Program-made: the position numbers and the translations under genes | Part shown: positions 5,330 through 7,708 of the stretch, in pieces | How the letters are laid out: every line of letters starts with the position of its first letter | Position numbering within the stretch: the stretch's first letter is position 1 | The notes under the pieces: generated by a model | The model's input: the letters and a program-made list of their open reading frames with translations, nothing else | The model's database searches: none | Told to the model about the DNA's origin: nothing | From: Sneathiella sp. | Lineage (GTDB): Bacteria; Pseudomonadota; Alphaproteobacteria; Sneathiellales; Sneathiellaceae | Assembly (NCBI RefSeq): GCF_002694385.1 | Contig: NZ_NZMB01000021.1 | Coordinates: forward strand, 42,570 to 106,569 | Direction: 5' to 3' | Length of the DNA: 64,000 nt

Positions 5330-5706
<377 letters not shown>

Positions 5707-6010
5707 ATTTTATTGTCCCTCGAATGTTTCGATACGGCCGCTCCGCTTTCCGTCGCGATTGCCTGTCTCCTGACCAACTGGTCGGTCAGGTTCTTGGGTG
5801 CGGTTATTGCCCATATATATAACCGTGATGTGCGGCTCCTTATATCAGGAAAGCGCGAATCTCTCCTTAATTTACACGAATTGGCGATGAATTTTTCGCA
5901 GTTCGCGGTCGATTTATCCTGACTGAAAAAATGCATGGGGGCTTGTCCGGGAAGCGCATTCGCAGATAAAGCTGCCATCATTTTTCCACTGTTCTGGTAA
6001 ATGCGAAAAA

Positions 6011-6025: not shown

Positions 6026-6151
6026 ATAATGGAAATTATGCATTACTTTCAACAAATGGATTGATGATTTTTGACGGCATAATAACCGCGAAAATTTTAC
6101 TTGTTTTTGACCGAAATAAGGCGCGGAAATCCCTGAAAATCAGGGCATTTT

Positions 6152-6204
6152 CCATTGACTTCCATAATATCCCATGATATCCCAGATTTATCCATTTTAC
6201 GCCA
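6152..6204 (-). promoter_or_regulatory. MraZ operator: six TGG/CCA repeats at 10-base spacing
   Basis: CCA occurs at 6152, 6162, 6172, 6182, 6192 and 6202, exactly ten bases apart. Read on the minus strand this is six copies of TGG-N7, two of them TGGG. MraZ binds TGGGN repeats spaced by five bases, that is, with a 10-base period, and represses its own operon. The array ends 96 bases before the mraZ ATG. A possible promoter overlaps it: TTGACT at 6155-6160, 17 bases, then TATCCC at 6178-6183 preceded by an extended TGA. Confidence 0.8.
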
Positions 6205-6300
6205 GAAGTGTTTAAAATCCCGGCGGGCGCCGGAAATTCATAAGCAGCGGTCTGTAATTTCTGCGAAAAGTGGCAAGTTTTTTTGGGGGGTGTCGCCTTT

Positions 6301-6756
6301 ATGGCCCTGTTTCTGTCCACATATGTCAACAAGATCGACAAGAAGGGGCGCGTCTCTGTTCCGGCCCGCTTCCGCACGGTCCTTGCGGGCAAGGGCTTTG
6401 ACAGTGTCGTGCTGTTCCCCACGGTCAATGGCGATGCGATTGACGGTTGCGGCATGGATGTGATGGAGCGGCTGCTGGAAAAGATCGGCGGGTTTGATCC
6501 TCTGTCCGAAGACCGGGAAAGCTATGCCGATGCGCTGATGAGTGATGCGATCGAGCTCACCATTGACGGCGACGGCCGGATCATGATCCCGCTCGACATG
6601 CTTGAGAATGCCGGGATTGACGGGCAATGCGCTTTTGTCGGGCGTGGTGACAGCTTCCAGATCTGGCAGCCCGAGGCCTTCGAAATTCGCAAGAAGGAAG
6701 CCCGTACGCGCGCGGCGAACAAGCGCGCCTCAAGCGCGGGAGGTGGCGATGACTGA
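6301..6756 (+). CDS. mraZ: MraZ, dcw-cluster transcriptional regulator
   Basis: MraZ is a DNA-binding protein with two AbrB/SpoVT-like repeats that forms ring-shaped oligomers and controls the dcw operon. The 151-residue product shows both signatures: STYVNKIDKKGRVSVPARFR near the N-terminus and TIDGDGRIMIPLDML near residue 85. The ATG at 6301 follows a GGGGGG run (6285-6290) that may serve as ribosome site. An upstream TTG at 6283 would add six residues and is less likely. It overlaps rsmH by 8 bases. The phased operator upstream points to autoregulation. Confidence 0.95.
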   Translation: MALFLSTYVNKIDKKGRVSVPARFRTVLAGKGFDSVVLFPTVNGDAIDGCGMDVMERLLEKIGGFDPLSEDRESYADALMSDAIELTIDGDGRIMIPLDMLENAGIDGQCAFVGRGDSFQIWQPEAFEIRKKEARTRAANKRASSAGGGDD

Positions 6757-7708
6757 TCGCAAGCCGCCGCATATTTCTGTGTTGCTACGGGAAGTGATTG
6801 ACATTCTCGCGCCGAAAGACGGCGGCGTTTATGTCGATGGCACCTTTGGCGCCGGCGGGTATTCCCGCGCCATACTGGAGGCGGCGGATTGCCAGGTTTA
6901 CGGCATTGATCGCGACCCTTTTGCGATTGATATGGGGCGCAAGATGGCAGGCGAGTTTGCCGGGCGCCTGGTGATGGTTGAAGGCTGCTACGCCGATATG
7001 GAGGCGTTGCTGGCCGAACAGGATATATATGCGGTGGATGGAATCGCCCTCGATATCGGGGTGTCCTCCATGCAGATTGACGAGGCGGAGCGGGGTTTTT
7101 CCTTCATGCGGGAAGGGCCTCTTGATATGCGCATGTCCGGCACGGGCCGGACGGCGGCCGAGATCGTCAATGAAGAATCTGAAGCGGAACTTGCCAGGAT
7201 TATTTTTGTGTATGGCGAGGAGCAAAGATCGCGTGCGATTGCACGTGCAGTAGCCGAGAGGCGCGAGTTGGCGCCTTTCAAGAGTACAGTTGAGTTAGCG
7301 GAAGTGGTGGCTTCGGTTGTGCGCCCAACAGGAAAGGGCATACATCCGGCGACGCGTACCTTCCAAGCGTTGCGTATAGTAGTAAATGATGAACTAGGGC
7401 AGCTGGTCCAGGGCCTGGCCGCATCCGAGCGATTGCTTACTCCCGGCGGTCGTCTTGCGGTTGTGTCTTTTCACAGTCTTGAAGACCGACGCGTCAAAAA
7501 CTTCCTGTCAGCAAGGTCTGAAGGGCGTGCCAGGCCGTCTCGTCATGTTCCTGTCTCGGACGAGGGGCCAGCTCCCACTTTCAAATTGATCAAGCGCGGG
7601 TCTATCAAGGCCCGTGCTGATGAATTGGCGGTCAATCCCCGCTCCCGCTCTGCCCGTCTCAGAGGGGCGATCAGAACGGAGGCGCCCGCCTGGACGGAGG
7701 CGGCATGA
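6749..7708 (+). CDS. rsmH: 16S rRNA (cytosine(1402)-N(4))-methyltransferase
   Basis: RsmH (MraW) methylates N4 of C1402 in 16S rRNA using S-adenosylmethionine. The ATG inside the end of mraZ gives MTDRKPPHISVLLREVIDIL, the normal start of the family, and 319 residues. Motifs include YVDGTFGAGGYSRAIL (SAM binding), IALDIGVSSMQID, RGFSFMREGPLDMRM, GIHPATRTFQALRI and VVSFHSLEDRRVKNF. It overlaps ftsL by 4 bases. Codons between about 7210 and 7430 are unlike the rest, with many GTA, TTA, CTA, ATA, ACA and CCA, although the protein motifs stay intact. Confidence 0.97.
   Translation: MTDRKPPHISVLLREVIDILAPKDGGVYVDGTFGAGGYSRAILEAADCQVYGIDRDPFAIDMGRKMAGEFAGRLVMVEGCYADMEALLAEQDIYAVDGIALDIGVSSMQIDEAERGFSFMREGPLDMRMSGTGRTAAEIVNEESEAELARIIFVYGEEQRSRAIARAVAERRELAPFKSTVELAEVVASVVRPTGKGIHPATRTFQALRIVVNDELGQLVQGLAASERLLTPGGRLAVVSFHSLEDRRVKNFLSARSEGRARPSRHVPVSDEGPAPTFKLIKRGSIKARADELAVNPRSRSARLRGAIRTEAPAWTEAA

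Follow-up and report, generated by a model that had tools for sequence, protein, structure and literature searches.

A candidate MraZ operator on the inverted strand, interleaved with the predicted mraZ promoter, in Sneathiella and across the Alphaproteobacteria

Few bacterial regulators are as widely conserved as MraZ, which heads the division and cell-wall (dcw) cluster. This AbrB-like ring protein reads RTGGG boxes one helical turn apart, a spacing that puts them all on the same side of the helix. The Alphaproteobacteria include Caulobacter, Brucella and the rhizobia. Two later papers (PMC8475190 and PMC7761207), citing Eraso 2014, give the MraZ target in E. coli as three TGGG repeats. In the K-12 genome (NC_000913.3) these boxes lie 3′ of TTGACA-N17-TAAACT and read, on the coding strand, agTGGGaaat, tgTGGGgcaa and agTGGGaata. 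At the Burkholderia cenocepacia dcw promoter a 7-nt repeat with a 3-nt spacer occurs four times, giving a 10-bp period, and gel shift showed that MraZ binds there (PMC7761207). The Mollicute site, as PMC8475190 describes the work of Fisunov et al. 2016, consists of AAAGTG[T/G] direct repeats. For R. sphaeroides, the passages of PMC5089854 on the UpsM/mraZ promoter place the mapped mraZ start 268 nt upstream, describe a 268-nt leader with a terminator and a small RNA, and make no mention of MraZ boxes. Both NtrX (PMC7240162) and CenR (PMC9275681) have been reported at that promoter, so control there is not by MraZ alone. Our literature search, which did not cover Eraso 2014 or Fisunov 2016, found no account of an alphaproteobacterial MraZ operator and no binding or expression report for any alphaproteobacterial MraZ. 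MraZ structures in the PDB include 1n0e and the more recent 9qlr, 9qlg, 9r4j, 9sx6 and 9sz7; the search found no paper on the latter five.

We examined the mraZ locus of a Sneathiella genome in a 64-kb window (the whole stretch of DNA that was analysed). The mraZ gene (6301–6756, plus strand) encodes 151 aa with two PF02381 domains (Pfam, 2.3e-17). Its product matches the NCBIfam MraZ models at 1.4e-44, below the curated cut-off, and is the presumed operator-binding repressor. The second gene of the dcw cluster, rsmH (mraW), follows at 6749–7708 (plus strand; PF01795, 2.6e-98). The upstream neighbour is rnpB, the bacterial class A RNase P RNA (5331–5709, plus strand; Rfam RF00010, 335.5 bits, E 1e-110), which forms one boundary of the 591-bp rnpB–mraZ intergenic region. 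Within this region, 97–149 bp 5′ of mraZ and thus at the head of the cluster, CCA triplets start at 6152, 6162, 6172, 6182, 6192 and 6202, in exact 10-bp steps. Two of them belong to CCCA (6171–6174 and 6181–6184). On the minus strand the array is thus a series of six TGG triplets, two of them extended to TGGG; the first-pass annotation had reported the same coordinates. The array has the form expected of an MraZ operator: tandem direct repeats with a TGG(G) core and a 10-bp period. Just 5′ of it, an inverted repeat, CCCTGAAAATCAGGG, at 6131–6145 is followed by a T-rich stretch; in close Sneathiella the inverted repeat is replaced by variants, CCCAGTATTTGGGG among them.

When all 64 triplets were considered at periods of 5–20, the CCA array was the only run of at least six in the window. 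In 3000 dinucleotide-preserving shuffles of the 591 bp between rnpB and mraZ, CCA runs at period 10 reached three at most (six times). With any triplet allowed at periods of 7–13, runs never exceeded four in 60 shuffles. Five CCA triplets at period 10 occur once in the 3.6 Mb genome, at the array itself, and the reversed-pattern control gave no occurrence. The shuffles and the genome-wide uniqueness rule out a chance periodicity. We also looked in this genome for a wider MraZ regulon, using three CCCA units at period 10 with up to two mismatches, and rejected it: with 178 matches to the pattern and 141 to its reversed control, none stands out as a second array.

The first-pass annotation had suggested aligning relatives to look for conserved 10-base phasing, and had named a lack of conservation as evidence against its MraZ reading. 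This lack did not occur. When the mraZ upstream regions of 22 Sneathiella genomes were aligned without gaps, all 22 showed the phased boxes. Among 100 mraZ upstream regions from across the Alphaproteobacteria, 93 carry three or more CCCAT units in 10-bp steps on the strand that codes for mraZ (no more than two mismatches in all), and in 75 there are four. The same test at the remaining periods between 6 and 16 gave 0–8 of 100, and runs of at least three appeared in 1 of 500 shuffled controls. Where each unit had to match at four or more of its five positions, the run length was two in 7 regions, three in 14, four in 43, five in 32, six in two and seven in two. Judged by this conservation and these run lengths, the array is an old, class-wide feature, typically of four to five units.

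The individual units, each a candidate MraZ box on the minus strand, were then counted in 71 aligned alphaproteobacterial regions with TTGA in register. Unit 0 (TCCAT, 6151–6155) overlaps the first T of TTGAC with its invariant fifth position; it is present at four or more of the five CCCAT positions in 47/71 regions and has an exact CCA in 12/22 Sneathiella. Units 1 (TCCAT, 6161–6165) and 2 (CCCAT, 6171–6175) are each found in 69/71 regions, with exact CCA in 20/22 Sneathiella for unit 1 and in 22/22 for unit 2. Unit 3 (CCCAG, 6181–6185) is found in 68/71 and unit 4 (TCCAT, 6191–6195) in 45/71, with exact CCA in 15/22 and 17/22 Sneathiella, respectively. The class-wide core is thus the five units 0–4. 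Unit 5 (GCCAG, 6201–6205; CCA at 6202) is at background level in the class (3/71) and is exact in 7/22 Sneathiella, mostly the closest relatives; several others have a CCA one base beyond its position. We regard it as a lineage-restricted and doubtful box. The six copies had originally been picked out as the remarkable point of the locus; since the sixth unit is not conserved, a special six-copy stoichiometry is ruled out as a feature of the class.

Some alphaproteobacterial regions carry additional elements. One (L016) has two phased CCCAT runs with a one-base slip (11 bp) between them, an expanded operator. Within a set of 59 aligned regions (L072–L171), 11 have a CCCA 21 bp 5′ of unit 0 that could be an additional box, two turns of the helix away, and seven have TTTTACT 14 bp 5′ of unit 0, a possible further promoter element.

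To relate the array to mraZ, 289 genomes were searched with the composite pattern TTGACnnCCCATn5CCCATn5CCCA, allowing two mismatches. In genomes with a listed mraZ position, 44 of 47 matches lie directly 5′ of mraZ and on its strand, and the remaining three have two mismatches each. The reversed pattern gave no match in the 289 genomes. The composite pattern is thus nearly mraZ-specific. In alphaproteobacterial genomes without detectable mraZ, 23 of 24 rsmH upstream regions have no array (Fisher P 7e-18 for array presence with and without mraZ, relatedness ignored). The lone exception, L254 from a 0.8 Mb genome (G145), has a CCCATTGACGCCCAGCTATTCCCATGTTAT array 5′ of rsmH, which may be a relic or be read by another protein. 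Five complete alphaproteobacterial genomes (G268, G427, G431, G447 and G345) have rsmH with no recognisable mraZ adjoining it, an apparent loss of the regulator in whole lineages. Three loci of a single family (L239, L243 and L244, from G037, G157 and G238) encode a divergent MraZ below the Pfam cut-off and do not have the CCCAT array. G037 has GTGG-type 10-bp repeats on the coding strand instead, and G157 and G238 have degenerate CCCG/CCCT-type repeats, which suggests that protein and operator are diverging together in this family.

The strand on which the boxes lie differs between classes. At least three GTGGG-like units are present on the coding strand in 27 of 40 upstream regions from non-alphaproteobacterial Pseudomonadota, and three CCCAT units in none of these 40. 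Conversely, none of the 100 alphaproteobacterial regions has three GTGGG units on the coding strand, and only two have three ATGGG units there. The alphaproteobacterial box is CCCAT on the coding strand and ATGGG on the opposite strand. The E. coli and Burkholderia layout, with coding-strand boxes downstream of the −10 element, is not followed by the Sneathiella array, which is on the opposite strand and overlaps the region from −35 to −10, as it does class-wide. Alphaproteobacteria thus carry the same TGGG core and 10-bp period on the other strand. From the shared core and period we infer that the alphaproteobacterial and beta/gammaproteobacterial boxes may represent the same contact made in opposite directions. 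The opposite orientation had already been recognised at this locus; it is confirmed, and the flipped direction is the rule in the class rather than a local oddity. The notable feature is this orientation together with the interleaving described below, both as class rules, which could not be seen from a single sequence.

The predicted −35 element, TTGACT (6155–6160, plus strand), and the predicted extended −10 element, TG-A-TATCCC (6175–6183, plus strand), are located inside the array. The TG lies at 6175–6176 and the TATCCC hexamer at 6178–6183, after a 17-bp spacer from TTGACT. The first-pass annotation had pointed to this promoter-like sequence, and its overlap with the boxes proves general to the class. 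TTGAC is invariant in all 22 Sneathiella, as is TGnTA. In the 71 alphaproteobacterial regions, units 0 and 1 are separated by TGAC and units 2 and 3 almost always by G-n-T-A-T (TGnTAT in 65/71), while the spacers between units 1 and 2 and between units 3 and 4 are variable. The CCC of unit 3 is common to the box and the −10 hexamer. The 17-bp separation of TTGAC and TGnTATCCC would correspond to the geometry of a housekeeping promoter with an extended −10. TATCCC matches a TATAAT-like −10 at three of six positions and does not have the usual last T, and a scan for consensus promoters made no call.

This geometry predicts a transcription start at 6190 (±2) on the plus strand, ∼7 nt after the −10, and a mraZ leader of ∼111 nt. 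In 20 genomes of another family (that of G047, probably the Rhodobacteraceae), arrays scoring at least 15 of 23 put the start mostly 244–287 nt 5′ of mraZ, a range into which the mapped R. sphaeroides start (268 nt) falls; in three or four weak cases no array is clear. The G047 leader has a strong hairpin and then a T-rich stretch near mraZ, like that described for UpsM; a terminator scan made no call there.

We consider it likely that the array is an MraZ operator on the mraZ/dcw promoter, at which MraZ would occlude the −35 and −10 elements and repress mraZ and the dcw operon. The MraZ reading, first proposed from this one sequence, is now supported by comparative data: conservation in 22/22 Sneathiella and 93/100 alphaproteobacterial regions, near-specificity for mraZ and absence where mraZ is missing. 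Mechanistically, the boxes would be read on the strand opposite to transcription, with promoter elements in the spacers: TTGAC fills the one from unit 0 to unit 1, and TGnTAT the one from unit 2 to unit 3. MraZ bound to units 0–4 would then cover the core promoter from −35 to just past the start site. Because the promoter elements lie between the boxes, a bound ring would exclude RNA polymerase, and MraZ would in this way down-regulate its own gene together with the division genes that follow it. We infer MraZ binding, repression and the position of the start site, and negative autoregulation is the most economical account.

It is unlikely that MraZ binds the array but is an activator, or works both ways, instead of being a plain repressor. 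The effects of MraZ do vary by organism: it is reported to repress its own operon in E. coli and M. genitalium, whereas its overexpression in M. gallisepticum raised FtsZ (PMC8475190). However, repression is the commoner reported outcome, and boxes that reach from −35 beyond −10 would get in the way of RNA polymerase. More improbable still is that the array is only an unusual extended core promoter, its C-rich units being promoter or DNA-bending features to which MraZ does not bind. Such an explanation would fit the overlap with TTGAC-N17-TATCCC and the status of TGnTAT as the most conserved spacer, but the units continue past the −10 at the same period (unit 4 in 45/71) and their TGGG/10-bp pattern agrees with the E. 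coli boxes. In addition, the composite is nearly limited to mraZ upstream regions rather than being found at promoters in general, and the array disappears at loci without mraZ, where rsmH must nonetheless have a promoter. CtrA recognises TTAA-N7-TTAA. There is very little chance that the phased units serve another regulator such as CtrA, NtrX or CenR: ChIP signals of NtrX and CenR lie near R. sphaeroides mraZ (PMC7240162, PMC9275681) and a CtrA motif is reported for S. meliloti mraZ (PMC3616915), but neither the CtrA motif nor the published NtrX motif (GCAn9TGC) resembles the phased unit, and the array tracks the presence of mraZ.

It seems somewhat likelier than otherwise that Alphaproteobacteria have re-laid the dcw control point, inverting the boxes and interleaving their bases with those of the −35 and extended −10 elements, where beta- and gammaproteobacterial groups have them on the coding strand 3′ of the −10. 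If so, the step that MraZ blocks would be polymerase binding and not a later one, and neither operator nor promoter could evolve without the other. The strand flip between classes makes two matters testable: the sensitivity of a ring-shaped MraZ to direction, and the initiation step that is blocked. The consensus CCCATTGACnCCCATnnnnnCCCATGnTATCCCA would locate the dcw promoter and the predicted MraZ site in most Alphaproteobacteria.

Arrays of TGGG with a 10-bp period at mraZ are of a known kind; what sets this one apart is the flipped, promoter-interleaved alphaproteobacterial layout. The Mollicute site resembles the Sneathiella array in having direct repeats with a GTG core at the mraZ promoter, with a different consensus. 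The R. sphaeroides UpsM/mraZ promoter is itself an alphaproteobacterial dcw promoter, and related genomes carry a similar array at the predicted distance; its leader is 268 nt compared with the ∼111 nt predicted in Sneathiella. The B. cenocepacia site shares the 10-bp period at the dcw promoter, but its repeats lie downstream of the −10 and over the start site, as in E. coli and unlike in Sneathiella (PMC7761207). E. coli PmraZ (mraZ1p), which opens the dcw cluster, likewise has tandem TGGG-type boxes with an exact 10-bp period 5′ of mraZ. There, three GTGGG boxes occupy the coding strand 3′ of the −10, whereas Sneathiella has five to six units of the ATGGG type, on the other strand and extending from −35 to past −10.
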